A DNA stretch of 34,295 bases from an uncultured Desulfocapsa sp. GTDB lineage: Bacteria; Desulfobacterota; Desulfobulbia; Desulfobulbales; Desulfocapsaceae. The notes under the pieces were generated by a model. It was not told where the DNA came from, did not search any database, and saw only the letters and a program-made list of their open reading frames with translations. Numbering within the stretch: position 1 is the first letter of the stretch; each line of letters begins with the position of its first letter. Position numbers and translations under genes: made by a program. The stretch is from contig CAMZLK010000082.1 in NCBI GenBank assembly GCA_947311475.1, positions 1 to 34,295 of the forward strand. Reading direction: 5' to 3'. Positions 11,100 to 33,961 of the stretch are shown here, piece after piece.

Positions 11100-11121
11100 T
11101 CTTCTTCCTTCCTTTAGGGTA

Positions 11122-20100: not shown

Positions 20101-22374
20101 GGTAACCGTATCACCGGGGGAAAGGTGCGGGTTGTTACCCGGACTATAGATTGTGGTCCCTTGATGGGTAATGGCATAAATATCCTTGATTACACTGCCG
20201 GTGACAATATCTATGGAATCACAAGACTGGTCTGTTTCTAAATTTCCGTTCAGAGCGTTGTTTGTATAATCATACACCTCCCCTTGGATGGTTACCCCAC
20301 CGGAAAGGATATCACCCTGGTCGACATTTATTTCACCTGTCGAAGTGTTGCCATAATTTTGGTCTATCTCCGCCCAATAGGTGATGGTTCCCCTGGTAGC
20401 TCCTTCGGCATGTCCATCGGTATAGCCGCCGTCAAGTACACCATTGCCACCTACTACGGAAGAGACGTCAAAGTGCAATAAGGTGTCATCTGTTACGTTT
20501 GTACTTGTTGTAAGTTCAGTACTTGTAAGTACGTGGTTGCTGGTAATATCCGTACCCCGTTCGGTAATGGTGATGACGGGGTCAAAGCTCCCCCCATTGA
20601 GCAGGTGCATACCATCGGACAACAGATCGTCTATAGTAATATCACCGTAGCCGAAATAGTCGGAAATCTCGAAATCCAAGGTAAACTGAACCCGGTCCCC
20701 AGGAGTGTATCCTGCTGCACCTATATCATTATCCAGACTATGCACTTTCTGGATGGCAATGGACTGAACATGGGAAATGTCATCAACCGACGAATTGGAG
20801 GAGAAATGACCGCTCGCGTTCACTTCTGCGACAATGACGCCATCTGTTATGTCTTCATTGTGGTTATCCGTTGATTCCCAGGAATAATGCACCACGCCGT
20901 CATTGACGATGTGAGAGAAATCGCCGGATGTATGGTCAAGGACATCACCCACATAAAAGTCATACTTGATAACTACGTCGTCACCAACACCACCGGTGAC
21001 ACTATTATCCAGAGCAACCGTTACCTGATGGGTTGTGTCGTCCCAGTTGAAGGTGTAGTCATTCGTAGCTACTCCGTTAACCTCAACACTGTTTATACCG
21101 GTAACCACCACCCCGTCTGTCACCGTATCTACCATCTCCAGACCGGTGACAGTCTTACCGTCGGCCACATTAATTGTGCCGACATAGATTCCCGGATAAT
21201 TCGGCCCGGTGGGCACCTCTTGATGGTTAACCTCAAAGGTATGACCGGGATCATCGGCCCACTGGCGTACATCGTCATAGGTCGGATCATGCTCTTCCTG
21301 ACAGTCAGAACCTACTGAGGGGAGAATAATATCCTTGTTATAGGTGATCAGCTCAGGCGCAAAAGTCTGGGTATCAGGGTTTTGGTTGCGTATCGGATTA
21401 TCTATGGAAGGGTTATTCAGAGGATCATGCCCCAGACTTGCCCCACCTCTGGTATGGACAGCCAGGTTCTGGTCAATATCGGCATTAACTCCCATGTGCG
21501 CTGTTACCTGGATAACAGCCTCGGGCTGGTCAGCCTCAAAAGAGCCAAAAGGCATGCGCAGGAAGACCACCTGGTCACCTGCTTGAAACTCGTACCCATT
21601 GATATTGTTAAAAACACTGGGGTCTCCGTTGTTATAGGTAGCCCAGGGATGCATTACGTGTTGCCCGTCCTGGGTAATATTGATTACCACCTGTTCAACA
21701 TCAGCGCCAAGAAAGGTGGCGTTGACAAAAGTGATGCCGTCGTCACCGAATCCACCGGTATCGTCTCCATCCTGACCGCCTTCCAGTACCATGTCAATAT
21801 AAGGGCTGTACACTGTGGAACCGGTAGTGTTGTTAAAAGTGACCGTAAAATCAAAATCTTCACCAACCATAGGATCAATAGCCACTGGTTCTGTTGCTGC
21901 AGCCGTTCTTAAAATAGCGTCGGAGGAATTATCACCGGAGTTTTCCAGGCTATCTTGGGTATCATCCGGTTCCTGTGCGTCTGTCGAATCACCCTCTGAA
22001 GCTTCCTGGGCAACCGGAGATTCAAGGTTCACAGCTTCCTGTTCGGTCTCAGAATCAGCAGTACTGATATTTCCTGCGTCAGCAGAGCCATCTTCGGAAT
22101 CAGCCATATTCTGCTGGTCAGAATCAGCAGCCTGAGCATCAGTACTATCCACAGAGTCTTCAGTGGGCGCTTCTTCAGGGACGGTATCACCATTGTCACT
22201 ATCAACCTGTTGCTCAGTGTTTTCAGGCTCAGTTGCAACTGGCTCAACCGGAGCGTCAGCAACATGATCAATAGTAGGGTCAACGCCACCATCAGCATCT
22301 ACTAAAGGATTGGCATCCAGGAATATACGGTCTTCAAGTTGCTCGAGAAGAAGAGGGAGATTTTTTCGCTTCAT
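11122..22374 (-). CDS. Giant secreted surface protein: LEPR-XLL-like leader, DUF11 and SdrD-B repeats
   Basis: The protein has 3750 residues if started at the ATG at 22374, which has AGGA seven bases upstream; an upstream in-frame start has no such site. Residues 8-24 hold LEQLEDRIFLDA, a LEPR-XLL-like motif found at the N-terminus of very large repetitive exported proteins; there is no ordinary signal peptide. Residues 25-156 are an acidic Asp/Glu/Ser linker. Residues about 160-1775 are beta-rich modules, several of DUF11 type (for example near 905, 1112, 1277, 1438 and 1608). Residues about 1780-3527 are fifteen SdrD-B-like repeats with DxDxDG loops likely to bind calcium. A proline-rich stalk (about 3530-3562) and a 190-residue unique C-terminal domain follow. 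No LPXTG, PEP-CTERM, RTX or autotransporter end is seen. It is first in the operon with its probable export genes and is most likely an adhesin or cell-surface fibre. Base composition is patchy (see findings). Confidence 0.9.
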   Translation of the reverse strand: MKRKNLPLLLEQLEDRIFLDANPLVDADGGVDPTIDHVADAPVEPVATEPENTEQQVDSDNGDTVPEEAPTEDSVDSTDAQAADSDQQNMADSEDGSADAGNISTADSETEQEAVNLESPVAQEASEGDSTDAQEPDDTQDSLENSGDNSSDAILRTAAATEPVAIDPMVGEDFDFTVTFNNTTGSTVYSPYIDMVLEGGQDGDDTGGFGDDGITFVNATFLGADVEQVVINITQDGQHVMHPWATYNNGDPSVFNNINGYEFQAGDQVVFLRMPFGSFEADQPEAVIQVTAHMGVNADIDQNLAVHTRGGASLGHDPLNNPSIDNPIRNQNPDTQTFAPELITYNKDIILPSVGSDCQEEHDPTYDDVRQWADDPGHTFEVNHQEVPTGPNYPGIYVGTINVADGKTVTGLEMVDTVTDGVVVTGINSVEVNGVATNDYTFNWDDTTHQVTVALDNSVTGGVGDDVVIKYDFYVGDVLDHTSGDFSHIVNDGVVHYSWESTDNHNEDITDGVIVAEVNASGHFSSNSSVDDISHVQSIAIQKVHSLDNDIGAAGYTPGDRVQFTLDFEISDYFGYGDITIDDLLSDGMHLLNGGSFDPVITITERGTDITSNHVLTSTELTTSTNVTDDTLLHFDVSSVVGGNGVLDGGYTDGHAEGATRGTITYWAEIDQNYGNTSTGEINVDQGDILSGGVTIQGEVYDYTNNALNGNLETDQSCDSIDIVTGSVIKDIYAITHQGTTIYSPGNNPHLSPGDTVTYHIHYDMPFSSTEDFKLTDYLPQPVFDVHDPDLDGTDNSWTYDSTLFDGTTNAPAAGWWGYTNLDTYHTVGDSIVTVGAGTGNTLVFDYGAYHDGGDDIAAIDLVFTVTVSSEPFADGMYLTNQVRATEESTQLAQNDADAIVQIVLDEPDLHVIKGVVQTDNDVADTDTPIFTAGDTVDSYFTEPTDANFRFNDSGTTILSSNWLATHDINTDLSNVDGSDSVTMAIVVENTGSSGAFDITLNDALPTGYAAGDVTNIKVTDGSGTELTYTGSLFDGNGITLVNDADGALNAYDDGTTGENILVITYDLNLGDGVYVDQDMVNTVTVTSFASAEGATNFATEGIADSATTHTTNLHMDKILVETEIVNGTNDNSEAVIGELVTYQVTVTMPEGHADTVHVIDTLDEGLTFVELTNIQSSNGNITSSLGNFDTNNFSGSQSGQIVTFDLGDLTNSVNSNDTVETITLTYTAFVNNSAGNHSGTTLDNSAVVDFIDSNGTDHHQSNTDADNTVTVIEPDLDVAKVVDVDGSGTGYGDAGDSVNYTITISHNANSDTDAFDFDFSDTIPAEITGATISQVTDTAGTLGTGDFSLSGNSLTLNGTEDMPMGRVITIEVTGTLAASVTPGTQFDNTANITWQSLGDDNAVPSHVNDGTSNERTGDGTGENDYHESNSATVHVDSASVAKNLVGTEINNSGNTATEAIIGELATYQVVITVPEGNLDSAELVDQLDAGLTFGSIISVVVAGDITTTGGAALTTANITTSTTGDGHEGNAQTVIFDLGDLVNGLNNNAAETITIQYTALVENFDVNDRGDTLNNSALFRYEDAGNNTITTNIDSAQDITILESQITTTKHINNVDDATVAVGDIVTYTVVLENTGNATAYEVTAVDTMAQGTTYFSDGTHVPSATAGGVVITDNGNGTLTITSSTDGWDIDEGGTITVTYYAMIGANYFDQDYTTGANSNNPVNSVNADWSSNDDSGSLTNSGRDRIYNDQVDGNGNPIYTVDGSQDVDTAQFNLNYDGSIGDLVFFDADNSGTNPGGDVGISGVDVTLTADLDGDNIADFTRTVRTDADGLYSFGNLAAFSSYVITVDTATAGGINPMNLTAAGYSQTYDPDGTATANTTTASLTAGEHRTDVDFGYAGQNTVGDVVWWDADADGLQDTNEGGLNGLTVTLHADIDGDGNFEYSTTTTTASHTVGGVTTDGWYSFGDYLPGGDYYIEVAQPAASVQTYDIDGSTTGTSANRGNFTLAADNDRTDIDFGYNGVCSIGNYVWYDINNDGVQDAGEQGLGGVKVTLTGGDLNNDGNPDTYTTFTDNNGSYSFNNLFGSAYTVTIDTTTLPGGDASNWDQSYDLDDSTGAFITANSSGSMDLGINGQGTTRSDVDFGYTGAGSIGDLVFFDADHSGDLSAGDTGITNLGVTLTADLDNDGTVDFTWTTTTDTNGNYTFDHLLDLSLINNNFTGYTVTIDPTNLPPHSVQSYDLDGTTPEHVTTGIALAANEDRTDVDFGYITQGTGSIGDTVWYDADADGVQGASETGLAGVTLQLDGDITGDNVTDVTYTTITDANGNYLFDELLLGTYTVTVIGLPNGMSQTFDLDDGTAPFATPDAATISLADGEHNNNVDFGYTGAANIGNTIYFDADNSGSETGGDVGLGGVTVTLTGDVNNDGIEDVLTTTTDANGNYLFENLRDGDYVVTVDPAGLPGGMSQSADPDAVLDNTSNVTIAAGVDDLGQDFGYTGTGIIGDRIWDDQNGDGVQDGGENGLNGVDVTLSVDFDGDGVVDYTETVTTAGDGDYSFSNLPAGNYTIKVDTADIPGGYILTGDPDSNPDSVSTVVLPAGGTNLDQDFGYQDSGTPTGSIGDTIYYDADHSGSETGNDLGLGGVTVTLTGDIDGDGDIDTVTTTTAADGTYLFDNLVAGDYTVTVDPSTLPAGMLNTVDPDGGNDNSADVTIGGALPLDNTGQDFGYDGTGSIGDTIYFDGNNNGNQDSGDVGIGGVDVRLDMDLDGDGNTDYTQTATTQSDGSYLFEDLPAGEYTITVDPTTLPNAIQQSADPDSSLDNTSTVNLAGGQTNLDQDFGYTGTGSIGDTIWNDVDGDGTQNGTEEGLSNVDITLNADIDGDGNPDYTVTVTTDSNGNYVFENLPAGDYTITVDPGTLPTGMNPVADPDGGNDNTAAVTLVAGEDNVDQDFGYNSGTGSIGDTIFFDEDGNGAQNGTEGGLAGVSVTLVGDINGDGTVDTLTAITDSNGKYLFENLAAGNYTVTVDQSSLPAGMNQTSADPDTPGAPDNMSTVALAAGADNFGQDFGYRGTGSIGDTIWDDADGNGIQNGAEVGMAGVDVTLSVDYDGDGNTDYTMMTTTGPGGSYSFDNLPAGEYTIEVDTTDIPANYTQTGDPDANPDSTSTVNLAVGETNNDQDFGYHDSGSPTGSIGDFIWFDSNGNGLQDEVVAGGDSGLGGVTVTLTGDIDGDGDIDTITTTTADDGSYLFDNLNAAGAGGVDYTITVDPTTLPGGMIQTGDPDSIMDNTTTVNIGGSNPVDNDTADFGYNGTGTIGDTIYFDTDGDGVEDPGENGMGGVDVSISVDLDGDGIPDYTETVTTAPDGSYSFNHLPEGEYTVTVDPATLPNDVAASGDPDSVLDNSTTVNFGSGETNNDQDFGYTGTGSIGDTIYSDVDGNGFQSSGEPGIGGVTVTLQGDFDNDGTIDSVTTTTDANGHYLFEGLTAGTYTVYVDSTTLPPGLTQTGDPDASIDDQSTVILGAGEANNDQDFGYNGRIVVPPQPDPPKPEPVIPPAPAPTPVIPVQPQPDAPAVVMTAPQIIPDAFFMHQQFGDRIDDDIFQYPFGVTPWLEPILPVSPIYSGLAEPGTTLNFVLYDALGNEIANQTVMADTAGNWLASFPGVLMFDQPHHMVIEQTSSTYNASSDGFFNMRTYYNPNFNSMAFSSTRLDVAAVFAHLPSTVMESMHASNMSTLNLGWDDFNGYEFFTPSTHPASSGH
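11791..17036 (-). repeat. Fifteen SdrD-B-like repeats, about 350 bp each
   Basis: Each unit starts with a form of GSIGDTIYFDADGNG, continues with GLGGVTVTLTGDIDGDGDID, then TDANGNYLFENLPAGDYTVT, and ends in DQDFGYTGT. At DNA level some units are almost identical: the segment near 12686-12733 and that near 14401-14447 differ at only about three positions over 47 bp. The proximal units (DNA 11.8-15.2 kb) are more alike than the distal ones (15.2-17.0 kb). Confidence 0.9.
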
Positions 22375-22771
22375 AAGAAATCCTACACAAAAGGTGAATG
22401 GAACATATACCCAGCTCAATCAGCCGAAATCACAGCACTGTTAAGACAAACCAATAAAGAGCTTTGTCATTATCCTAATACTGCAATTTTATCAACACCC
22501 CTTGCCCTGAAAAGGCATTACCTTACCGAATCCTTACCTCACCAGTCAGGAGTGACTAGGTTTTTGGATTAACGTTACACTTAAGTACTCTTGCAGGCTT
22601 TCGCGATCTAATAATCAGTTGTGGAGACCTGCCATTTATCCGGAACAGTTTCCCCACCAGCTAAAACAGCATTTTGCATCAAAACAAGCAGAACATTAAC
22701 AACCCTAATTTTTTGTGTTCAACCCTGAGTTTCTGTTGGCAACTACAAGAAAGGAAGAGGAAGGAAAAGCT
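22375..22771. other. Divergent intergenic region upstream of the giant-protein operon
   Basis: This region of roughly 400 bp has no convincing gene. It should hold the promoter of the 18-kb operon on the minus strand and of the small gene on the plus strand. Short plus-strand open frames here lack ribosome binding sites. I see no riboswitch-like fold or sigma-54 -24/-12 pair that I can defend. Confidence 0.4.
22469..22495 (-). promoter_or_regulatory. Weak candidate sigma-70 promoter for the giant-protein operon
   Basis: On the minus strand, TTGATA (22495-22490) and GATAAT (22474-22469) resemble -35 and -10 boxes, but the 15-bp spacing is short of the ideal 17. They would give a leader of about 90 bases before the ATG at 22374. 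Offered as a candidate only. Confidence 0.25.
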
Positions 22772-23338: not shown

Positions 23339-23818
23339 TTATTCATTACAAACAGTCACCACTTCAGCTTTACGTAAAATGGTGCCACGCGCAGTATCCA
23401 CATAGCCTTTTTTCTGTACAGTAATAATTGTTTCATTGTCAAGATCGGGATCGGCATCGGTTGAAACAACCTTGCACTGCCTGATTTGTGCATGGCTGCC
23501 TTCAAGTTCCAATGGCTCAATGTTACGGGAGGCCAGCAGGCGAAGTAATTTCCGTTTAATGGCCTTCATATTTTTCACCAGCCGCCGTCCTGTTTTGTCC
23601 AGTGAATCCTGTTTGCCTGCCATATTACTCTCCAGAACATCAAAAGCATCTGCGATTTCCAGAAGATCAAGCAAAAAAGTCTGCTCCCTCCTGTCGAATG
23701 CATCCTCCCGGTCACTGAGTTCTTGTTTCAACGCCACTATTTCACGCTGAAAGGCTGTAAGCTTGCCATGAAGCAATACATAAGGATCTCTTTCTTTATT
23801 TTTATGCTCCCGGTTCAT
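23339..23818 (-). CDS. GrpE-like nucleotide exchange factor
   Basis: GrpE releases ADP from Hsp70. This 159-residue version keeps the coiled coil (residues about 15-60, KLTAFQREIVALKQELSDRE), the four-helix bundle segment (LLDLLEIADAFDVLESNMAG) and the beta domain with TVQKKGYVDTARGTILRKAEV at the end, which matches the GrpE signature (GY-x(n)-R-x-A-x-V). It is shorter than housekeeping GrpE (about 190-200) because the disordered N-terminus and part of the long helix are reduced. It overlaps the J-like gene by four bases (ATGA) and is last in the cluster, so it should serve the cluster's own Hsp70 and not the general heat-shock system. Confidence 0.82.
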   Translation of the reverse strand: MNREHKNKERDPYVLLHGKLTAFQREIVALKQELSDREDAFDRREQTFLLDLLEIADAFDVLESNMAGKQDSLDKTGRRLVKNMKAIKRKLLRLLASRNIEPLELEGSHAQIRQCKVVSTDADPDLDNETIITVQKKGYVDTARGTILRKAEVVTVCNE

Positions 23819-24111
23819 CTCTGCATATCAAAAATAGTTAATCGCTTCAGTCCTTCGACGCCCTCAAGCAATGGTATTGCAGAATCCCCACTGGAATTTT
23901 CTTTTCCCGGATTGAGCAACGACACAATATCAACACAATGCACAAAATCAAGAATCATCCTTGCCTGCGGATCCATAAGCTGCTTTCTTGCCCCGGCAAC
24001 CTCCCTGGCCGAATATTTCCTTTCCCGCAAAGCCAAAGCCACCGCCTGGACAATCTCATGCGCTGTTGCATCATGTTTTATACCAAGGACTTCGTAAGGG
24101 TTCATGTCCAC
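23815..24111 (-). CDS. J-domain-like protein lacking the HPD motif
   Basis: The 98-residue protein starts MDMNPYEVLGIKHDATAHEI, the helix I and turn of a J domain, then VQAVALALRERKY as helix II and AGARKQLMDPQARMILDF as the helix III/IV end. The HPD tripeptide that stimulates Hsp70 ATPase should sit between helices II and III; here the loop is shortened to YSAREV and HPD is absent. The gene overlaps the TPR-like gene by ten bases and the GrpE-like gene by four. It may dock on the Hsp70 without activating it canonically, or use another mode. The J-like call rests on the N-terminal half. Confidence 0.65.
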   Translation of the reverse strand: MDMNPYEVLGIKHDATAHEIVQAVALALRERKYSAREVAGARKQLMDPQARMILDFVHCVDIVSLLNPGKENSSGDSAIPLLEGVEGLKRLTIFDMQR

Positions 24112-26180
24112 ATCTCCTTTTGAGCTATTTTAGCTTCCAGCATGGAAACAACCGGGTGCAGCGGATCGACCCTGGTGGCATATTTAAGAAACTTTCTAAA
24201 CAGGAGCATGTTCGCATCGGGCTGAGCATCATACTCATTCCCCGCCTGTTCACATACCTCTCTAATAAATTCAAAGAACATTTCACGCACATCGCTATAT
24301 GAACTTTTGGCGGCAAGGCTGCTTGCCGCCGACAACTTAAAGCGATTAATATGTCTATTGAGTTCATCCACTTCCAGATTACGTCTGGCATCCCCAAGCT
24401 GGAATTTGGTGAATTCATCATCAGGATTAAGAGATGCAGCCTTCTCAAGAGAGGAGACCAGTACTCTGACAGTCCTCTTGCCCTTGTTAAACAGCTCAAC
24501 GGCATGCCTGGTCATAACTCTGCAAAGGGCGTGATCAATCTCTTCGGAAGGGCTGTCTTTTTTCCAGGCAGACAAGATATTTACACAAACGCCAAGACGT
24601 TCATCGTCCCAATCTTCTTCGTCATCCAGCATGGCGAGCAATCGCGTTTTCTGTTTTTTAACGCCCTTGAATAAGGAGGCAACTTCCACCAGCAGTCTTT
24701 CCGCTTTTTTAAAATCCCTCTTCACCATGGCCTGAAGTCCACATACAAACATTATTGTTTTTATGGCGTGGGCAACAAAGGGATCACCATTTTCTTTGTT
24801 GTTCATGTCAAGGAAAGCAGCGGCCTTGTCCGCATCACCATCTCGAACCATAAGCAGTGCCGCACCCGCCCGGCAATAGTCGGAACCGACATCAAGAAAG
24901 CTAATTCTGTCGGGGAAAGCATCCTCATTCGCCCTTATCAGCGCAAGAAGTTCCTCGCTTATACCTGCCTGCAGAGCAAGAGCCGGAGTCAGTAACGGTA
25001 CAGATTGGCCAATTTTCCCATCTGCACGAAGAGTATCCAGAATTGTCAACTGACTGAAAGAGCCTTCCCACTGACTTAGCAATTGTTTGCCGACTTGCGG
25101 ATGGTAGCCTGCATATTCTCTCACCAATTCCAGTCCGGAATCAAAAAGTGATCCAGCCACCTTCCCTGAAACGGGATTGAAAAGAGCGGAAAGCCAGAAA
25201 TCAATAAATTTCCGTATCGCAGCAACGGAAAGGCGTGAACCTTCTTTTTCCACATAAATAAAAGCCGCTTTGGCATGGAGCGCCAAAACAGTCAGATTCA
25301 GAGGATCTGTTTTGTCACTGATCTCCACGATTTCTTTCATTCTATTTTGCTGCCAGAGTTCTGCCAGCTGCAATAAACGACAGCGTCCAAGCAACTGCAT
25401 GGCCGCAGGCGAATCCTCATACCCGGAAAGGGATTGTATCTGCTGCCTGGTCTCAGCTTCACGCCCGAGCGGATCTTCATCCAGATAAGCCTCTTTTTCC
25501 CTTAAAAGCAGTGTGAAAACCACATCTTTCTGTCGGGCAAAATCAGAGTGGTCAGATTGGATTTGCTGCCAGAGCTTCAGGCACTCCAGGTATTTGTGTT
25601 GCAATGCCAGGGCAAAACCATAATTGTATAAATCAACTGTTTCCATACAGTCCGCCTCAGCATAAGCATCAGCAGCCTGTGACCACTGTCCCGCCATAAT
25701 CAGACAACGGGCACAACGGCATAGCAGCAAGGTGTCAGAATTAGCGGTATACAGTTGAGAAAGAAAGCCCGCAGCAGCAGAGTAATCCCCTGCTGCCTCT
25801 GCCTTCTCTGCAGCGGCAAGCAGATCCTGCTCAGCGGACGCAGTCTGCAATCCGGCAATGCTCTCCGCTATCCGTTCATCAGCGGTGAGATCGAAGGCCT
25901 GCTCAAAAAACTGCAGGGCTTGAACAGGATCTCCTTTTTTGAGCAGACGTCTGGCTTTTTTTACAAGTTCACCTGCACGAATTGCTGCTACTTCCTCCCT
26001 GCAAACACTGATATGTTCGGCCACTGTCTTTGCAACAGGAGTTTTGTTTTTATTGACTTTTTCAAATTTCCCATATTCTCTTAAAGCAGCCTGGAAACTT
26101 TTCTTCTTAAACAGTTTTTCAGCACGGTCAAGAATATCATGCGCTGATTGCGCTTTCTTTTTTGATTTTTTCTTTGCCAT
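24102..26180 (-). CDS. TPR-like helical-repeat protein in the Hsp70 cluster
   Basis: I do not recognise a named family. The 692-residue protein has a lysine-rich start (MAKKKSKKKAQSAHDILDRA), followed by helix pairs of TPR character: AEKLFKKKSFQAALREYGKF, KKARRLLKKGDPVQALQFFE, AAEKAEAAGDYSAAAGFLSQ and ADAYAEADCMETVDLYNYGF. It ends with two further helical stretches around residues 580-690. There is no signal peptide or membrane segment. Such proteins act as scaffolds or co-chaperones. The position between the LysM-type gene and the J-like gene, with a ten-base overlap to the latter, implies function with the Hsp70. GGAAG lies about eleven bases before the ATG. Confidence 0.75.
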   Translation of the reverse strand: MAKKKSKKKAQSAHDILDRAEKLFKKKSFQAALREYGKFEKVNKNKTPVAKTVAEHISVCREEVAAIRAGELVKKARRLLKKGDPVQALQFFEQAFDLTADERIAESIAGLQTASAEQDLLAAAEKAEAAGDYSAAAGFLSQLYTANSDTLLLCRCARCLIMAGQWSQAADAYAEADCMETVDLYNYGFALALQHKYLECLKLWQQIQSDHSDFARQKDVVFTLLLREKEAYLDEDPLGREAETRQQIQSLSGYEDSPAAMQLLGRCRLLQLAELWQQNRMKEIVEISDKTDPLNLTVLALHAKAAFIYVEKEGSRLSVAAIRKFIDFWLSALFNPVSGKVAGSLFDSGLELVREYAGYHPQVGKQLLSQWEGSFSQLTILDTLRADGKIGQSVPLLTPALALQAGISEELLALIRANEDAFPDRISFLDVGSDYCRAGAALLMVRDGDADKAAAFLDMNNKENGDPFVAHAIKTIMFVCGLQAMVKRDFKKAERLLVEVASLFKGVKKQKTRLLAMLDDEEDWDDERLGVCVNILSAWKKDSPSEEIDHALCRVMTRHAVELFNKGKRTVRVLVSSLEKAASLNPDDEFTKFQLGDARRNLEVDELNRHINRFKLSAASSLAAKSSYSDVREMFFEFIREVCEQAGNEYDAQPDANMLLFRKFLKYATRVDPLHPVVSMLEAKIAQKEMWT

Positions 26181-26217
26181 TTTCTTTTATCTTCCTTATG
26201 GATCGTTCTAGCCCAAG

Positions 26218-26327
26218 GCGGGTTTTACCCGCAACCCAATAATAATTGCCGTAGGAGTCCGCCCCTGCGGGCGATAATCACGGCTCAAGCAATGTATCCC
26301 AATCGCCCGCAGGGGCGGGCTCCTACG
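26218..26327. repeat. REP-like palindrome in the gap before the TPR gene
   Basis: Arms at 26250-26275 and 26302-26327 are complementary at 25 of 26 positions; each contains TAGGAG-Y-CCGCCCCTGCGGG. A small separate hairpin, GCGGG-TTTTA-CCCGC, sits at 26218-26232. The element is far richer in G and C than its surroundings and has the form of repetitive extragenic palindromes seen across proteobacterial genomes. It lies in the only long gap (199 bp) inside the cluster, between the LysM-type gene and the TPR gene. Confidence 0.8.
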
Positions 26328-26379
26328 CTGTGCCTCAAAATTTTCTTGTTTTTTATGACAGGAATCCAGGAGTAAGGCA

Positions 26380-27249
26380 CTAACGCAGAATAATCCTTAC
26401 CGTTTCAGAGGGAACAATCTTCACACCGGCATCAAAAAAAACCTGCCTGTCCTTTCCCGGTGCAACAAACCTGGCATAGATTGAATCCTCTGTGTCTTCC
26501 GGCTGTACGATATATTTCCATAACAGGGTTCCGTTTTTCCATTCTGTCTTCATGTCATACCTCTCCTCAAGTGCCACAGGATCGGAATCTGAGATAAGCT
26601 GCATCCTGATCCCTTCCGTGATATCGCTAATGACAAGATGAGGGTTATGTTCCATAATAAATGGATAGTACTTTCCCTCCCCATAAAATCGGCGGGCAAT
26701 CCCCCAGAGCGTATCTGTTTTTCGGGTGTAATAAAAAAAAGTATTCTCATCTTTTTCCTTTGATACAACCACAGTAAGGCGATTCTCCAACTCCCCTTTC
26801 AGACTTACAAGCGCAGTGTTGATACGTTTTATTTCAGCACCATGGCTTTTTACTACCTCTTCCATCCTGGAAAAGGAATCCTCGTAATTCACTTGCAGCT
26901 TATGAATATGCAGGCGGACAGTGTTTACATCCTGCTCCATGCCCTTGTCATGAATGGCAGCGACCATGGCAGTGCCCATCCCGTCAAGGCGTCTGTCGAA
27001 ACGTCCCATGACAAACGACAAAGCAGCAAGAGCCAGGGCAGCACCAAAAACAGCAATATACACAAGCAATCCGGCACCGGAACTATTTGAAGGGATATTC
27101 CCCCTCTGTGCAGTCGATGCTATCCGTTCCGTACGAAGCAGGTCGAGCGCTTGAAAACAGGTCAAATCCGCATCACACTGGGGACAACTCTCACAGTCAG
27201 GCGTCAACCCGTGACGCTCACACACAGGACAATCAATTCCTTCCGTCAT
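26380..27249 (-). CDS. Zinc-ribbon, single membrane segment and LysM-like domain protein
   Basis: The 289-residue product has cysteines at 7, 10, 19, 22 and 25 (CPVC, CESCPQC), a zinc-ribbon-like knuckle. A membrane helix at about 60-82 (LLVYIAVFGAALALAALSFV) comes next, then a coiled-coil stretch at 105-160. A LysM-like module lies at about 172-220 (YYTRKTDTLWGIARRFYGEG, then EHNPHLVISDITEGIRMQL). The topology would put the zinc ribbon in the cytosol and the LysM module outside the membrane, where LysM usually binds peptidoglycan. The start codon follows the stop of the Hsp70 gene directly (TAAATG), so the two are translationally coupled. It may tether the chaperone cluster to the cell wall or membrane. 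Confidence 0.75.
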   Translation of the reverse strand: MTEGIDCPVCERHGLTPDCESCPQCDADLTCFQALDLLRTERIASTAQRGNIPSNSSGAGLLVYIAVFGAALALAALSFVMGRFDRRLDGMGTAMVAAIHDKGMEQDVNTVRLHIHKLQVNYEDSFSRMEEVVKSHGAEIKRINTALVSLKGELENRLTVVVSKEKDENTFFYYTRKTDTLWGIARRFYGEGKYYPFIMEHNPHLVISDITEGIRMQLISDSDPVALEERYDMKTEWKNGTLLWKYIVQPEDTEDSIYARFVAPGKDRQVFFDAGVKIVPSETVRIILR

Positions 27250-29562
27250 TTATTTACGAAGATCCTTATGAATTTCCATTCCGGCATGGTCTCGCGACAT
27301 CAACACTTCACGCACTTCCGGCATCGTTTTTTGCAACAATTCGTTCACCGCAGCAGGATCTGCGTTCTTTTCCATTAAATAAATGAGTTTGTCAATGGCT
27401 CTGGTAAATCGCATAGATTTTGCCTTGTCAGTGTTATAACAAACCTCAGCGGCATTTTCTATACTCATCAACAGGTTAACCCCACTCAGATCAGGTTCGT
27501 CGAGAACATCCTCCAACTTTTTCTGTGCCTTTATGGTCTGTCCATAAGAGCCATCGTCATCCACACTTCGCAGCTTTTCAATTCTGTCACCGATGCGTTT
27601 TTTCAGAGCAGGAGAAATCAACATGCCGTAGTTATCCAGCATGGCTTCGGCATAATATATTTTCGTAGCGGGTGCCTCTCCGCCCTCTGCAATCGTAACG
27701 GCCTTAGATATTTTAGCCTCTGCCTGTTTATACACATGTTCATCAACTTTTCCCGTTGCCGCAGCCACCACGCCATGAATAGTGCGAATAATAGATCGCG
27801 TGCGACGCAAAAAATCGATAACAACAAATTCGCCATACCCCTTTGTGTTGACATCGTTAATGGTCTGTTCAAGGGAAAGAAAAAGTTTTTCATCCGCTTT
27901 ACCACGGGAAAGAGTGCCGGAGATCCTAATATCAGGATGTTCAAGGATTGTTGCCTCCACAGAAACGAGGTTATTCTCATCTATACTGATCGTAATCTCA
28001 AGCTGTGGCGGTTCATCCTCCTCATACAGCCTTTCTTCATCATCAATGCCCAGCCAGAGATCACCTATTCTCTCTTCCTTATCGTTCACCACATTATGGA
28101 ACTTCATATGAACGAGTTCCTGGTTCACATCAACAAGCCGGAAGACCTCAGTACTGGAACATGGCAAAGGCGTATTTTTTTCCACCAGCAGAAACCGTTC
28201 GTCATTTTCAAGCGTTATGTAGTAATCATGGGCTGCAGCATGCACGATACCGACAAGCCCCTGATCCACCATGTGAGCATCCATAGCAAAACTGCAATGG
28301 GGACAAACATCTTTTTCCCGGGCAACTTCCCCGCCGCATCCCGGACATTCCAGCAGATCGCCAAGTCGATGACTGAGAATAGCAGCACCCTCTGCTATTG
28401 CCAGCATGGGCCTGTCGTGAAGCAGCACTTTTTCCTCACCAAATTCATCCTGCAATGCTTTGATGACAGCGGGTATGCGGGAACTTCCACCCACCAGAAG
28501 AATATTATCGATAAGATCTTCAGTAAAATGTACTCCGCTTATGATATCACGCACCAACCTTATCATTGAGGCCAGCATGGGAGCCAGCATGGTATTAAAC
28601 TGTTCTCTGCTGAGTTTCACCTCAATATCAAAAGCATCCCCGTCCTCATCAAGGAGAAGACCAAAAATTTCAATAAATGTTTCTTCCCTGTCGCTGAGGG
28701 CAATCTTACTTTTCTCCACGCTTGATTTCAGCTCAGCAAGGAAGCGATTTTTCCGGGATAGCTCCTGGTTCTCTATCAGGGAGTAGATATCATCAATTTC
28801 CTCTTCCTTTGCTGTTTCAGTAAGCACATGGTCGATAATCAGGCGGTCAATGTCTTCCCCCCCCAGCCACATATCACCACCTTTTCCCATTTCGATAATC
28901 TGTCCTCCGCTGATGGTGAGAATGGAGAGATCCAAAGTTCCGCCGCCAAAATCAAACACCAGAACCGTACGTCCCTCGTCTCCGGAAACACTATCCACTC
29001 CGAAGGATATGGCCGCAGCTGTGGGTTCCGGCAGCAGGCGACTCACCTGAAGGCCGGCTAAAGCTGCCGCTGTTCGGGTTCGGTGTTTCTGTTTGTCATT
29101 AAAGTAAGCGGGTACCGTTATGACAGCCGTATCCACCTCATCACCAAGAGCTTCTTCGGCATCATGTTTGATTTTTTCAAGAATTTTGGATGAAATTTCA
29201 TCGGGGGTGAATTCTTTACCGGCGGCATGAATGGCAAGGCTGTTTTCTGATCCCTTTGAATGGGATGTAATTTTGTAGCGCAAACCATGTCCGGTAATGA
29301 GCTCCTGCACTTCACTGTCATTAAAATTTCTGCCCATTAGACGTTTAACAGCGGTGATCGTGTTATCCGGCTCCTGCTGAAGCCACTCCAATGCATCACG
29401 ACCAACAATAAACTCTGGCGCCCGCATAACTCTCTTTCTGACGGTGACACATGAAGGGGTTATCTGCTCGCCCTCACTGTTTTTAATCACTTCAGTGTTT
29501 ACCTTTTTGATTGCTGCCACAGAATTCGTGGTTCCCAGGTCTATTCCGATTGTTTTTTTCAT
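27250..29562 (-). CDS. Long Hsp70 (DnaK-like) chaperone with zinc-ribbon insert
   Basis: The nucleotide-binding domain is complete: IGIDLGTTNSVAAIKK (phosphate 1), VITVPAYFNDKQKHRTRTAA, LLPEPTAAAISFGVD, VFDFGGGTLDLSIL (phosphate 2) and ILLVGGSSRIPAVIKAL (adenosine). Around residues 403-425, where DnaK has the linker to the substrate domain, there is a CPGC...CPHC zinc ribbon instead of the usual DVLPL-type linker. A degenerate substrate-like beta domain follows (NTPLPCSSTEVFRLVDVNQE; LEITISIDENNLVSVEATIL), then about 220 helical residues. At 770 residues it is about 130 longer than DnaK. The ATG has AAGGAA about twelve bases upstream. It heads a coupled run of the LysM-type, TPR, J-like and GrpE-like genes, so it is a specialised Hsp70 and not the housekeeping one. 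Confidence 0.9.
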   Translation of the reverse strand: MKKTIGIDLGTTNSVAAIKKVNTEVIKNSEGEQITPSCVTVRKRVMRAPEFIVGRDALEWLQQEPDNTITAVKRLMGRNFNDSEVQELITGHGLRYKITSHSKGSENSLAIHAAGKEFTPDEISSKILEKIKHDAEEALGDEVDTAVITVPAYFNDKQKHRTRTAAALAGLQVSRLLPEPTAAAISFGVDSVSGDEGRTVLVFDFGGGTLDLSILTISGGQIIEMGKGGDMWLGGEDIDRLIIDHVLTETAKEEEIDDIYSLIENQELSRKNRFLAELKSSVEKSKIALSDREETFIEIFGLLLDEDGDAFDIEVKLSREQFNTMLAPMLASMIRLVRDIISGVHFTEDLIDNILLVGGSSRIPAVIKALQDEFGEEKVLLHDRPMLAIAEGAAILSHRLGDLLECPGCGGEVAREKDVCPHCSFAMDAHMVDQGLVGIVHAAAHDYYITLENDERFLLVEKNTPLPCSSTEVFRLVDVNQELVHMKFHNVVNDKEERIGDLWLGIDDEERLYEEDEPPQLEITISIDENNLVSVEATILEHPDIRISGTLSRGKADEKLFLSLEQTINDVNTKGYGEFVVIDFLRRTRSIIRTIHGVVAAATGKVDEHVYKQAEAKISKAVTIAEGGEAPATKIYYAEAMLDNYGMLISPALKKRIGDRIEKLRSVDDDGSYGQTIKAQKKLEDVLDEPDLSGVNLLMSIENAAEVCYNTDKAKSMRFTRAIDKLIYLMEKNADPAAVNELLQKTMPEVREVLMSRDHAGMEIHKDLRK

Positions 29563-29637
29563 AATGTGTTTATATTCCTTTATGTTAACGTGTTATCCGA
29601 ATATGTGATTAAGGAAGGTGGCAAAAAACAAGACCTT

Positions 29638-29868
29638 TCAGGCTTCCAACCACATAATTCTGTGAATAGTCTCCAAATGACGATTCAATGACTTACGTCC
29701 GAAATTTTTTATCCGTAACAAATCCCGGTCATTGCACTGTACCAGCTGCCATACATATTCTATCTCTTTGTTGACGAGCCCGTTATGGCTGCGCACGGAT
29801 AAGTCAAGTTTATACAGACTCAGACTCATATTACGCAACACTTCTTTACTAAGGATTGTTTTTCTCAT
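29638..29868 (-). CDS. Free-standing RNA polymerase alpha-CTD-like protein
   Basis: The 76-residue protein matches the C-terminal domain of RpoA. LDLSVRSHNGLVNKEIEYVW is the first helix pair (RpoA: LSVRSxNCLK), LVQCNDRDLLRIKNFGRKSL is the helix-hairpin-helix part with the KNFGxKSL signature, and NRHLETIHRIMWLEA closes the fold. The N-terminal assembly domain of RpoA is absent. In RpoA this domain binds UP-element DNA and activators; alone it could bind DNA or compete for activators. It is coupled to the upstream helicase-like gene by TAAATG. It is clearly not the cell's rpoA, which would be about 330-350 residues. Confidence 0.8.
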   Translation of the reverse strand: MRKTILSKEVLRNMSLSLYKLDLSVRSHNGLVNKEIEYVWQLVQCNDRDLLRIKNFGRKSLNRHLETIHRIMWLEA

Positions 29869-31041
29869 TTATTTAAAACCAAGAATATATCCGTGAGCCT
29901 TAAGAGCTTTAATGAATTGTAACTCCTTCCCTGGCGCTGCAACCAAATACTTGTCGTCCGCCGGCATACAAAGACTGCTCATTTTTTTATTTGCAAGAGC
30001 TTTCTTCCTGGCATCAGGACTGCATTTAATCAGCGTTGTCTGCCCTGCATTTAAAAAGGCGGTGGATCGGTATTCAACATCTTTGAAAAGTTGAACAAGT
30101 TCCTCACTGAAATCCTCCGTTGCCGAATCCTTCAGTGTCTTCTGTATCACGGCCAGACTTTCACCACCGTTAATCGCATTCAACAATGTAGCACGAGAGA
30201 AACGGTATCTGTCAACCTCTGTACGTTCAGCTATTTTTTCCAGATATAGTTCCTGCCCTGGAGGGAGTGCGGCATTATTCAAAACTATCAACTCAGTGGC
30301 ATCAAAACTGAACAGATCTCCTTCAGTATCCTGTGGTGTGTAATGTTCATCATGCCCCATAACAAAGGCACCAAGATCGTTGACCCTGATATATTGCAAC
30401 CCATCACAGTGGCTGAGGAATTGTAAATCCCAGGTTCCCCAGCAGGATGAATAATCTTCGGATCTTGCACCGTAAGGTTCCCCATAGGCAACATCGACAA
30501 TCCCGAGGGTGGCACAATACTCAAAAAGGTAAACTAAAATATAACGAAGCTGTAAAAGAGGCCAGGTATATTCATTGTCGATATGTCCGTAATGCTGGTC
30601 TGAAAAATAGAGTTTCCAGTCATAATTCACCATTTCAAAAGAATAGGTGCTTTTACTCTGTATGACTCGGGCAAACTCGTCAATACTGATCCATTCGCCA
30701 GGTTTAAGATCCTTCAACAGATTGTTGATCATAGGCCTGCGTTTCACAGGGGTGGTCATAGTGCGTCCCCGACTTGAGCGCTGCCCTTTAATGGCCGTCA
30801 CTCTTGAAAACTCATCTATAATTTTAGTCTTTTCCCATTTTTCCCAGATTGTTTTGATTCCACCGGCCAGATCTTTTTGTGCTGCTTTGCGACCCGCCGG
30901 GGTAAGTTTCAAAAAGGAACCATCAGTTTTAGTCAAACGTCCCCCCTGCAGCAACAAGGGCCAGGCGTAAGCCTGTATGTATCCGATATCAGGATCGCCT
31001 TCGTCAGCATACCAGTCAGACTCATAGAGTAATTCATCCAT
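29869..31041 (-). CDS. XPB/Ssl2-like helicase-associated protein, C-terminal part (frame-split)
   Basis: The frame matches the helicase-associated (Helicase_C_3, XPB/Ssl2-like) family, whose members lack the ATPase motors. QAYAWPLLLQGGRLTKTDGS and LKLTPAGRKAAQ are the winged-helix part. YLEKIAERTEVDRYRFSRAT followed by LLNAINGGESLAVIQKTLKD is the characteristic C-terminal module. The ATG at 31041 has no convincing ribosome binding site, and the frame stays open and family-like for 17 codons upstream of it (IRVSAKTGKGTAATVRK). It therefore continues the gene at 31083-31592 after a -1 shift. It may be made only as a fusion, or the gene may be broken. Its role is probably nucleic-acid related, with the neighbouring SNF2 helicase. 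Confidence 0.65.
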   Translation of the reverse strand: MDELLYESDWYADEGDPDIGYIQAYAWPLLLQGGRLTKTDGSFLKLTPAGRKAAQKDLAGGIKTIWEKWEKTKIIDEFSRVTAIKGQRSSRGRTMTTPVKRRPMINNLLKDLKPGEWISIDEFARVIQSKSTYSFEMVNYDWKLYFSDQHYGHIDNEYTWPLLQLRYILVYLFEYCATLGIVDVAYGEPYGARSEDYSSCWGTWDLQFLSHCDGLQYIRVNDLGAFVMGHDEHYTPQDTEGDLFSFDATELIVLNNAALPPGQELYLEKIAERTEVDRYRFSRATLLNAINGGESLAVIQKTLKDSATEDFSEELVQLFKDVEYRSTAFLNAGQTTLIKCSPDARKKALANKKMSSLCMPADDKYLVAAPGKELQFIKALKAHGYILGFK

Positions 31042-31082
31042 TTTTCTGACTGTGGCAGCTGTACCTTTTCCCGTCTTGGCAC

Positions 31083-31592
31083 TTACCCGTATTTTTTTAT
31101 CTCGGCAAGGTTTAGAAATGTGGCAAGATTGGAAAGAGCTGCCCTGGCAGTTTTTCGTATATTTAGTTCCTGATCCGCCAGCTCATCGTTTGTGGCGTAA
31201 ATGATTGTGTCTTCAGGAGGTGGTGGAGCGATGGTTTTCAGCTTTTCCAAAAGGTCACACGGCATGGTATTGCCAATCACAAAGATATCCAGTAAGATCT
31301 TCTGATAGCGATCTTTCCTTTGTAACCAGGGGGAAGACTTGTATTTATTAATAAACATCCTCCCTTCAAAAGTACCGCCCCAGGTATGAACAGTTTCAGA
31401 CACTGCATATTGAGCGAGTTTGGGGAGTTGTTCATAAATACCCCGCAAATCATTCAGCATGGTGTTCACTATCAGTTTAATGCGCTCATCCTTTCGCGAT
31501 GGTACTTTTGAACAGAGCAGGGCCGCCAGTTTTTGTAAATCTGCCGTCAGATATGCACTATCCAGTGCTTGATGTAATGTTTGATAAAACAT
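31083..31592 (-). CDS. XPB/Ssl2-like helicase-associated protein, N-terminal part
   Basis: The 169-residue product begins MFYQTLHQALDSAYLT; AAAAAAGG stands about eight bases before this ATG, which is why I prefer it to a TTG fifteen codons upstream. DLQKLAALLCSKVPSRKDER has the look of a SAP-like DNA-binding helix pair, and the remainder is helical, as in the N-terminal half of the helicase-associated family. It stops with TAA at 31085-31083, directly after an A7 run. Shifting to the -1 frame there restores continuous homology with the downstream frame (AEIKK, then IRVSAKTGKGTAAT). It is therefore the 5' part of one gene. It is divergent from the SNF2 gene. Confidence 0.65.
   Translation of the reverse strand: MFYQTLHQALDSAYLTADLQKLAALLCSKVPSRKDERIKLIVNTMLNDLRGIYEQLPKLAQYAVSETVHTWGGTFEGRMFINKYKSSPWLQRKDRYQKILLDIFVIGNTMPCDLLEKLKTIAPPPPEDTIIYATNDELADQELNIRKTARAALSNLATFLNLAEIKKYG
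31092..31098 (-). other. A-AAA-AAA heptamer at the frame break (candidate -1 frameshift site)
   Basis: On the minus strand the codons run GAG ATA AAA AAA TAC GGG TAA. The A-AAA-AAA heptamer is in the X-XXY-YYZ phase used for -1 slippage. A -1 slip yields ATA CGG GTA AGT GCC and joins the downstream frame without any gap. No strong upstream Shine-Dalgarno and only a weak possible downstream stem (GUGCC with GGUAC) are seen. Confidence 0.5.
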
Positions 31593-31747
31593 GTGGTGTA
31601 AACCTTTTTTTAAATTTGGTAGTTTTTTTGATTTCAACCCGAATATTTACTATTCCAAATACCCTTCATCCTGCATAATGAATAATAAACAGCCCCTTAA
31701 AAAACGTTTAAAAGAGTATCACACCCTTCCCCCCACTGCAGAAAACA

Positions 31748-33961
31748 ATGGTGCAACTGCTGGCCGTCAATGTTGATTACATGCGAATCGCTGTAATGAT
31801 TAACTGCCTCACAGATCCGGAACTCAGGCCGGACGATGATCTGGTGCTCACTCCTGCAGTTCTGCAATCTATACAAAAAGAACTTATTAGTAAAGGCTTG
31901 CTGATACAATCAGCAAAAGGAATGATGTGCCCGGAATCCATCCGCAAACAGGCACTGTGGGATGCCCTGGCAACGAGCACATTTACGCAAATTGCCGAAA
32001 CAATCCAAAAAAAGACAACGCTGCCGGATACAGGAAAAAAAGCAAACCCTTTTAAAAATTACCAGGAACTTATCCGCTCCTTTCAGATAGCTCTGTTTAC
32101 TCACAAAACATCCGACGAACTCCTGACAATCGAAAAGTATTACGCTTATAAATTCTTCCACAATGACTACCTGTCAAACAATCCCCATCACAGCATACTC
32201 AACAATCCTTTCTCCAGCGAAGTTATGGAATTCATTCATCCTCAAATACGAATGGAGGTCTCCTTTTCTCTACTGGAAATATGCGGAAAATTATTGGAAC
32301 AATCAGAAGAAATCCTGAATTATATCCTCAGTAATTACCACGCAGAATTCATTGGAAAACGTTTGGCAATAAACCTTATTAACCACCACCTGATCTGTGG
32401 TGACACCACCTTCGCCCTTTTACTTGCAGACAATCTGAAAAAAGGTCTTAAAGCGGAGCAACTCAGCCGTACAGGATGGTCAAAATGCATCTGCGGTGAT
32501 TACAGTGAAGCCATTACTTTGTTTGAGGAAGCAATCAAGTGCAAAAAAAAGAGTTCAAGAAAACGAAAATTGTTCCTGAAAAGCTATGGTGGTATTTTCT
32601 ACCTGCTGGCACTGCTCCAAACCAACGATGAGCCCTCTCTACGAAAAGGGCTGGGATATATTGACACAACAAAACAACATATATACCCAAATCTTCCCAT
32701 CACAAGAGTTATGAGACCAGTTTTTGAATCACAACTGGGCCTTCCGGTTACTCCACAGTCTGTTAATGCTATGCAATATTACAGAAATGCCCCCCTTTTC
32801 ATTTTCTTGATTTGCCTTGTCCAGACCTGGACTGATTCCTCTCTGGTTGAAGAATATATCCCTGAACTCACCCAAAACAGGAACAAAGCGCAAAAGAACG
32901 GTTACACCTGGCTTGCTGCAGAATTATCCGCATTGCTGGCAATGCTCGGTGAGGACAAGGCGCGAAATCAGACTCTGGCCGGGAAACTGCACAAATCCTG
33001 CGGAACGGTCAGCCTTGTTAAAATAGTCAAGGTGCAAGCACAATGGGAAAAAACGCTCAATGGTTTGTTGGCCATAGGCAAAACCGGAAAGAAGGTAAAA
33101 CCGGTTAATTCAGATACACAACGGCTGGTCTGGTTGTTCAGTCATAGTGAAAAGTATAATCACTGCTACATTACTCCACGACTCCAGAAGCTCAACAAAA
33201 AGGGGACATGGACTAAGGGCAGATCCGTTGCGATGAAAAATCTCTACCAGAACCACCACACCATGGAGGGACTCACCAATCAGGACCGGCAAATATGTCA
33301 GGCCATTAAAGAGGAATATTATCGCTCCGAGTACAGCTATTATGGAAAAACAGAATATGTCATCGAATACGACAGAGCCTTGCCGGCGCTGGTCGGTCAT
33401 CCGCTTCTTTTTCTGGAAAGCTCCCCCGATGTCCATATAGAACTGGTTTTGGCCGAACCGGAAGTACGGCTGGTGAAGGAAAAAGGGAAACTGAAGCTCT
33501 CTGTTTTTCCTGCTCAGGCAACGGATGAGATACAGGTGGTGAAAGATACACCGACCCGTTTCAAGGTGGTTCGTTTCTCGGCACATCAGAGCAGAATTAT
33601 CGAGGTTCTGCAAAAAGAACTGATCATACCTAAATCAGGAGAGAAACTGGCACGGCAGGTTGTTGATTCTTTATCCTCACTGGTAACTGTTCACTCCGAC
33701 ATTACAACGAATGCAAAAACTAACGTTATCAAAGCAAACAGCACCCCCCACGCTCACATCATCCCCCACCAGGAAGGTATTTGTCTGGAATTCCTGGTGA
33801 AGCCCTGCGGTACAGATGGCTCAAGTTTCAGACCCGGAAAGGGCGGTAAGAATGTTCTTACGGAACGAAAAGGGGAAAGAATCCAGGCCGTTCGTAATTT
33901 TACTTTGGAAAAGAAACAACATGGCAAGGTTATCAACCAGGGTGATTTAACCCTAACCTAG
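31748..33961 (+). CDS. N-terminal half of a SNF2-family helicase, cut before the ATPase core
   Basis: The 737-residue frame matches the long N-terminal region of bacterial SNF2-type helicases of about 1400 residues. GDYSEAITLFEEAIK is a TPR-like stretch near residue 255. TPRLQKLNKKGTWTKGRSVA is a diagnostic segment, followed by LTNQDRQICQAIK, ALPALVGHPLLFLESSPDVH, LVTVHSDI and GICLEFLVKPCGTDGSSFRP. In relatives the SNF2 motor (DEXH and helicase C) follows directly. Here the frame enters an inverted repeat at 33938 and stops at 33961, so no Walker motifs are present. The ATG at 31748 has no ribosome binding site; an upstream frame from 31678 (MNNKQPLKKRLKEYHTLPPT) would fuse to it if one A were missing near 31742. 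The gene is likely inactive as a motor in this genome. Confidence 0.75.
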   Translation: MVQLLAVNVDYMRIAVMINCLTDPELRPDDDLVLTPAVLQSIQKELISKGLLIQSAKGMMCPESIRKQALWDALATSTFTQIAETIQKKTTLPDTGKKANPFKNYQELIRSFQIALFTHKTSDELLTIEKYYAYKFFHNDYLSNNPHHSILNNPFSSEVMEFIHPQIRMEVSFSLLEICGKLLEQSEEILNYILSNYHAEFIGKRLAINLINHHLICGDTTFALLLADNLKKGLKAEQLSRTGWSKCICGDYSEAITLFEEAIKCKKKSSRKRKLFLKSYGGIFYLLALLQTNDEPSLRKGLGYIDTTKQHIYPNLPITRVMRPVFESQLGLPVTPQSVNAMQYYRNAPLFIFLICLVQTWTDSSLVEEYIPELTQNRNKAQKNGYTWLAAELSALLAMLGEDKARNQTLAGKLHKSCGTVSLVKIVKVQAQWEKTLNGLLAIGKTGKKVKPVNSDTQRLVWLFSHSEKYNHCYITPRLQKLNKKGTWTKGRSVAMKNLYQNHHTMEGLTNQDRQICQAIKEEYYRSEYSYYGKTEYVIEYDRALPALVGHPLLFLESSPDVHIELVLAEPEVRLVKEKGKLKLSVFPAQATDEIQVVKDTPTRFKVVRFSAHQSRIIEVLQKELIIPKSGEKLARQVVDSLSSLVTVHSDITTNAKTNVIKANSTPHAHIIPHQEGICLEFLVKPCGTDGSSFRPGKGGKNVLTERKGERIQAVRNFTLEKKQHGKVINQGDLTLT

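Follow-up and report, generated by a model that had tools for sequence, protein, structure and literature searches.

Hsp70 chaperones signal through a short hydrophobic linker. In mitochondria, the zinc-requiring protein Hep1 binds the ATPase domain and linker of Hsp70 and keeps the chaperone soluble (PMC4890766). The nearest described gene set to the one considered here is the Hsp70/GrpE/DnaJ/TPR theme found around GAP1-N2 GTPase systems (PMC7159879). Our subject is a contig of an uncultured Desulfocapsa sp. (CAMZLK010000082.1, contig C82 in an assembly of 220 contigs), whose whole length of 34,295 bases is called the window. It carries a chaperone cassette, which consists of the genes for an Hsp70, a LysM protein, a TPR protein, a J-like protein and a GrpE, and next to it a helicase pair, which consists of an SNF2 gene and a helicase-associated gene. 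The best explanation, which taken as a whole is probably correct, is that the cassette is a rare, horizontally moving and intact five-gene operon and that cassette and pair are two modules that appear, from their distribution and divergence, to be separable. A literature search, with most subscription journals outside its reach, found no description of a zinc-ribbon Hsp70/LysM/TPR operon.

The chaperone cassette

The cassette genes are on the minus strand (Table 1), and from 5' to 3' they encode the Hsp70, the zinc-ribbon/membrane/LysM protein, the TPR protein, the J-like protein and GrpE. Five genomes have all of these genes, identically ordered: this one (G000, or W), a congeneric relative recorded as a Desulfocapsa sp. 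metagenome-assembled genome (MAG; G015), a genome of the same family (G384), a genome of another Desulfobacterota family (G120) and a Spirochaetales MAG (G511). The complete dedicated chaperone set recognized in a preliminary description of the window has been kept as an operon in two different phyla. The tight gene junctions reported there were also seen, with four nucleotides or fewer at most positions when the five genomes are compared; in the window the LysM gene directly abuts the Hsp70 gene, and the J-like gene overlaps the TPR gene by ATGA. All five open reading frames (ORFs) are intact and are under purifying selection relative to the congeneric genome, with ratios of non-synonymous to synonymous substitution (dN/dS) of 0.12-0.27. 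The cassette is rare, being present in two of 395 genomes of the phylum and in one of 393 genomes of the phylum to which the Spirochaetales MAG belongs, and a short-pattern search of genome_contigs located it at two loci.

The Hsp70 has a complete nucleotide-binding domain, a zinc ribbon in the interdomain linker, a substrate-binding beta domain and an enlarged helical C-terminal domain. The motifs GIDLGTTNS, AVKRLMG, FDFGGGT and LVGGSSR align with the DnaK of the same genome, and the phosphate 1, phosphate 2 and adenosine motifs and the catalytic Lys and Thr are all present, which identifies the nucleotide-binding domain; the substrate-binding beta domain also aligns with DnaK. Zinc-ribbon-like cysteines lie at residues 405-425, and the four of the ribbon (C406, C409, C420 and C423) are invariant in the five genomes. 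By alignment, neither the genome's DnaK nor a related cassette type found in four genomes (see below) has this insert. In place of an uninterrupted hydrophobic linker (VLLLDVTP), the protein has AHMVDQGL/KYTIDQGI with the zinc ribbon interposed. The zf-DNL domain was absent among the Pfam matches of the Hsp70, Pfam being the only check made for homology to Hep1. Proteins of DnaK size are matched weakly, from position 65 onwards, by a profile of the C-terminal part of the Hsp70. All plasmid matches of the whole Hsp70 are below 60% identity, and the best-listed annotated ones bear the annotation DnaK.

As for the partner proteins, GrpE scores 54.8 bits against a curated cut-off of 25.8 and thus can be assigned to its family; it is 80% identical to its congeneric counterpart and is retained in all five genomes. 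The HPD motif of J-domain proteins is missing from all five J-like homologues. The Spirochaetales homologue of the TPR protein has a clear TPR_2 match (E 3.3e-9). In the LysM protein, the N-terminal zinc ribbon is of a similar kind, its cysteines being visible in the alignment; it is followed by a transmembrane (TM) segment (residues 62-80, maximum hydropathy 2.43), which is conserved in all five genomes, and by one or more C-terminal LysM domains, the match to which is below the cut-off. An Rfam scan of the region gave no matches. Matches to GrpE, DnaJ N-terminal, TPR (weak), LysM, Hsp70, alpha-CTD (the C-terminal domain of RNA polymerase alpha) and Helicase_C_3 (weak) were obtained at the coordinates given in the preliminary description.

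The surroundings of the other cassettes include an aldehyde:ferredoxin oxidoreductase gene, which adjoins the one in G120. In the Spirochaetales locus (L099:6144-8744), the gene 75 nucleotides upstream of the Hsp70 gene has a lipoprotein-like product in which FecR, PEGA and PQQ/beta-propeller domains are combined; this product is a possible client or sensor of that cassette.

The preliminary description suggested defence against foreign DNA as a role for the whole cluster. Could the cassette alone act against phages or in conflicts, in the manner of the theme around the GAP1-N2 GTPase systems? The published theme has the same four kinds of chaperone components (PMC7159879), the cassette is distributed patchily and across phyla, and genes for an HTH protein and for a ParE-like toxin are located downstream of it in G015, but other observations make this explanation unlikely. 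Genes for GAP1-N2, GTPase, FNIII or effector proteins were not seen in the five loci, where the flanking ORFs were inspected and some of them were scanned against Pfam. PADLOC 2.0 produced weak matches, of the TPR protein to Csx1/Csm6 (E 7e-4) and of the N-terminal part of the SNF2 protein to DpdE (E 0.0014), and no match to a defence-system model, so that the locus does not qualify as a known anti-phage system. The Hsp70 C-terminus has no match in viral contigs or in phages, the TPR protein has none in plasmids, and the five cassettes have no consistent defence neighbours.

The helicase pair and its relation to the cassette

The preliminary description presented a cluster of seven genes, with an SNF2-type gene divergent from them. 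The five linked chaperone genes withstand inspection, and the rest of the cluster does not. What was taken to be a separate XPB/Ssl2-like gene belongs with the ORF before it: the two frames (31592-31083 and 31041-29869, 169 and 390 residues) are one helicase-associated gene, whose reading frame shifts near 31090-31104, next to seven consecutive A, and its congeneric counterpart is a single ORF of 571 residues that spans both parts. The G390 gene is likewise broken. With PF13625, the congeneric protein reaches 23.7 bits (cut-off 34.2) and a Rhodococcus relative passes with 45.9; a search for solved structures of the helicase-associated protein gave none.

Similarly, the window contains only the N-terminal half of the SNF2-type gene, the full length of which is about 1400 residues. 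This half has a frameshift near its start, at about 31735 and adjacent to a run of six C, and it is interrupted by a transposable element with a 10-bp target duplication, GGTTATCAAC, at 33928-33937. The other copy of GGTTATCAAC, followed by the rest of the gene, is at the end of contig C75, where the helicase half lies (G000:C75:25868-26902). This interruption accounts for the absence of the SNF2_N and helicase C domains from the window piece; both are complete in a relative (L091; 3.8e-67 and 3.2e-25), and in the congeneric genome the frame stays open past the Walker A and DEAQ motifs as far as the contig edge. Given the transposon and the half on C75, a complete gene within the window was rejected. 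The transposable element has no match in plasmids. It has long inverted repeats, is repetitive in this genome and is found at the ends or borders of several G000 contigs, including the end of C75, C182, C207 and others. Two more full-length SNF2 paralogues, with frames of about 1400 residues, are present in the genome on G000:C37 and G000:C71 (L078 and L079). They are 52-58% identical over the helicase part, and the genome has one XPB-like gene only.

The alpha-CTD gene is an orphan at its junction. It is missing from the corresponding place in the congeneric genome, where there is a gap of 68 nucleotides, and no second standalone alpha-CTD was found among 91 genomes of the family, in which all further matches fall within long frames that have the size of RNA polymerase alpha. 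Because of these gene corrections and the absence of the alpha-CTD gene from G015, the locus is described better as a linked set of five intact genes, accompanied by one orphan gene and two broken ones, than as a seven-gene cluster.

Table 1. Features of the window, with coordinates counted from its first base
Feature	Position	Strand	Evidence or remark
GrpE-like nucleotide exchange factor, 159 aa, last cassette gene	23339..23818	-	Pfam GrpE E 1.1e-14
J-like protein, 96 aa, no HPD motif	23815..24105	-	DnaJ N-terminal match E 0.003
TPR-type scaffold protein, 692 aa	24102..26180	-	weak TPR matches
26-bp inverted repeat (hairpin) between LysM and TPR genes	26250..26327	not assigned	
Zinc ribbon (CPVC..CPQC), one TM and LysM protein, 289 aa	26380..27249	-	LysM E 0.0019
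Hsp70, 770 aa	27250..29562	-	PF00012 E 9e-102; alignment with the genome's own DnaK
Zinc ribbon C406, C409, C420, C423, inserted in interdomain linker	28288..28353	-	alignment
Standalone RNA polymerase alpha-CTD-like protein, 76 aa	29638..29868	-	Pfam E 2e-16
Helicase-associated (XPB-like, Helicase_C_3) protein, C-terminal part	29869..31041	-	Helicase_C_3 E 0.0014, under cut-off
N-terminal part of helicase-associated gene	31083..31592	-	66% identity to residues 1-167 of G015 protein
SNF2-type gene, N-terminal half	31678..33937	+	66% identity to G015
Start of transposable element, inserted in SNF2 gene, reaching contig end	33938..34295	+	terminal repeat CAGGGT..., long inverted repeats
Giant repeat adhesin, 3765 aa, at least 15 SdrD_B-like domains	11122-22419	-	
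TolC-like (OEP) and HlyD-like genes after adhesin	9288-11219, 6090-7931	-	type I secretion system

The preliminary description also interpreted chaperones and nucleic-acid remodelling proteins as one defined system. In that case the task of the chaperones would be to build or remodel a complex of the SNF2 and helicase-associated proteins, either on foreign DNA or on RNA polymerase. Several genomes speak to this point. SNF2 and helicase-associated genes (about 1400 and 575 residues) lie head to head, divergently, in five genomes of the same family (G384, G396, G057, G390 and G397), and none of these pairs has the cassette alongside; aceE, other genes or the contig end are there instead. The Hsp70 C-terminal profile, searched genome-wide, found the cassette Hsp70 in G384 and not in the other four. 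In G384 the cassette and the pair are on different contigs, and the neighbours of the cassette differ on both sides. Distant SNF2 and helicase-associated pairs (L049, L050 and L054) are likewise without chaperones, and there is no XPB-like match anywhere in the cassette genomes G120 and G511. Since the two travel separately in other genomes, we regard them as neighbours and not as one system.

The synonymous divergence (dS) points the same way. Between W and G015 it is 0.82 (0.73-0.92) for the cassette and 1.33 (1.13-1.64) for the pair, with separate intervals, and 1.83 (1.50-2.40) for eight housekeeping genes; between W and G384 it is 1.07 for the cassette and saturated for the pair. Judging from the lower value, the cassette seems to be the later of the two to have moved between these lineages. 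In addition, the lesions in the window (two frameshifts and the transposon insertion) are confined to the pair, and the chaperone genes are intact.

Some observations weigh against two separable modules. The preliminary description held that chaperones and helicase-associated genes would be kept together in some other genome, and they are, as the same arrangement was found in the congeneric G015; among the genomes examined, the modules adjoin in this species and G015 only. Within the family, the cassette is known from G000, G015 and G384, and each of these genomes also has the pair, so that a link of some kind is possible; we treat it as no more than a lead, because the sample is small, G384 was chosen for its pair and the other two are congeneric. 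Codon bias could account for part of the reduction in cassette dS. Both frameshifts are in or next to homopolymers and are possible assembly errors, which the transposon insertion could not be. Set against the separate occurrences, the differing dS, the broken helicase genes and the orphan alpha-CTD, these points leave one integrated system very unlikely, and a joint chaperone and nucleic-acid remodelling system is not supported. Adjacency, even when common to two congeneric genomes, is no proof of a single system.

For the helicase-associated family, the suggestion of defence fares better. Relatives are present on plasmids (L120 and L124 in Cupriavidus, L125 in Polaromonas): directly before Wadjet genes in C. 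taiwanensis, before unannotated ORFs of the same sizes as Wadjet genes in C. oxalaticus and beside Hachiman genes in Polaromonas. Another relative is near HsdM and TIR genes (G331), and a further plasmid-borne one, in Gloeocapsopsis, precedes an XPB helicase. The Wadjet, Hachiman and HsdM plus TIR neighbours, which could also be cited in favour of one integrated system, make a DNA-targeting or defence role of this family plausible without chaperones, which nothing connects with that role, and the plasmid-borne gene may be an unrecognized accessory gene or a separate defence gene. The XPB-like protein has no match in viral contigs. A search of the literature, again with most subscription journals beyond reach, found no description of an SNF2 and helicase-associated defence pair.

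Finally, that the cassette serves the type I secretion locus, with its giant SdrD-repeat adhesin encoded in the same orientation some 0.9 kb downstream, OEP and HlyD genes further on and a membrane/LysM component within the cassette as a possible connection, is highly improbable, because no adhesin gene is present in the available sequence beside the G015, G384, G120 and Spirochaetales cassettes, which makes this locus a weak client candidate.

Proposed working of the cassette

The cassette is most likely a membrane-tethered Hsp70 machine, as its predicted domains suggest. In the working that we propose, the LysM protein would most likely hold the machine at the inner membrane, and the TPR and J-like proteins would recruit the client and the Hsp70. 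The Hsp70 would bind the client in an ATP-driven manner, and GrpE, as the exchange factor, would reset it. By analogy with Hep1/Zim17, the zinc ribbon may stabilize or gate the nucleotide-binding domain and linker. The helicase pair would act separately, possibly on foreign DNA, and has decayed in this genome. Domain order, motifs and operon conservation are the sequence-based part of this scheme, and we infer the remaining steps.

Two points weigh against the tether. The charges of the LysM protein are similar on both sides of its TM segment, and so positive-inside counts do not fix the topology. The AlphaFold model of the Hsp70, built from three sequences, has a mean predicted local distance difference test (pLDDT) score of 43, which is too poor for a fold search, and only its helical C-terminus is moderately confident; because of this poor model, both the zinc-ribbon fold and the membrane tether are read from sequence alone.

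We also offer a tentative proposal, to which we give somewhat less than an even chance: the cassette could be a distinct bacterial Hsp70 class in which a built-in zinc ribbon replaces a Hep1-like factor and makes domain coupling zinc- or redox-dependent, with the HPD-less J-like and TPR proteins recruiting and the LysM protein holding the machine at the cell envelope.

Comparison with known systems

The helicase pair resembles pairs of XPB and Helicase_C_3 proteins, and SNF2-type helicases such as DpdE, in that a helicase-associated protein is paired with a helicase. However, the partner is XPB in Gloeocapsopsis and a head-to-head SNF2 gene here, and the similarity to DpdE is weak, as noted above.

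A Desulfobulbales cassette (L034, L035, L036 and L038) has the same kinds of components in another order, TPR-J-GrpE-Hsp70-small zinc ribbon, and is matched by our profiles for GrpE (2e-6), J (1e-4), TPR (2.5e-4) and zinc ribbon (1e-4). It differs in that its Hsp70 of about 590 residues is without the linker zinc ribbon, a separate protein of about 85 residues has the zinc ribbon, and there is no LysM or TM component. The J proteins of these four loci have a PPE-like sequence (FPPER, YPPER) at the HPD position of J-domains.

The GAP1-N2 GTPase conflict theme (PMC7159879) is alike in its Hsp70, GrpE, J and TPR gene set and in its patchy distribution. In place of the GAP1-N2, GTPase, FNIII and effector components, the cassette loci have the membrane LysM/zinc-ribbon protein.

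Hep1/Zim17/Tim15 likewise has a zinc domain with four cysteines, placed where the nucleotide-binding domain meets the linker (PMC4890766). Those are separate proteins, whereas the zinc domain of the cassette is within the chain of a bacterial Hsp70, and its function is suggested by analogy.

The DnaK/DnaJ/GrpE machine shares with the cassette the Hsp70 nucleotide-binding domain with its phosphate and adenosine motifs, the substrate-binding beta domain, GrpE and a J-like partner. Unlike it, the cassette has a zinc ribbon in the linker, an enlarged C-terminal helical domain, a J-like protein that lacks HPD and, as further partners encoded in the same operon, a TPR protein and a membrane LysM protein. 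A natural Hsp70 with intact ATPase motifs, a zinc ribbon at the linker and a J-like partner devoid of HPD is a direct test of how much change in the linker and the J switch is tolerated.

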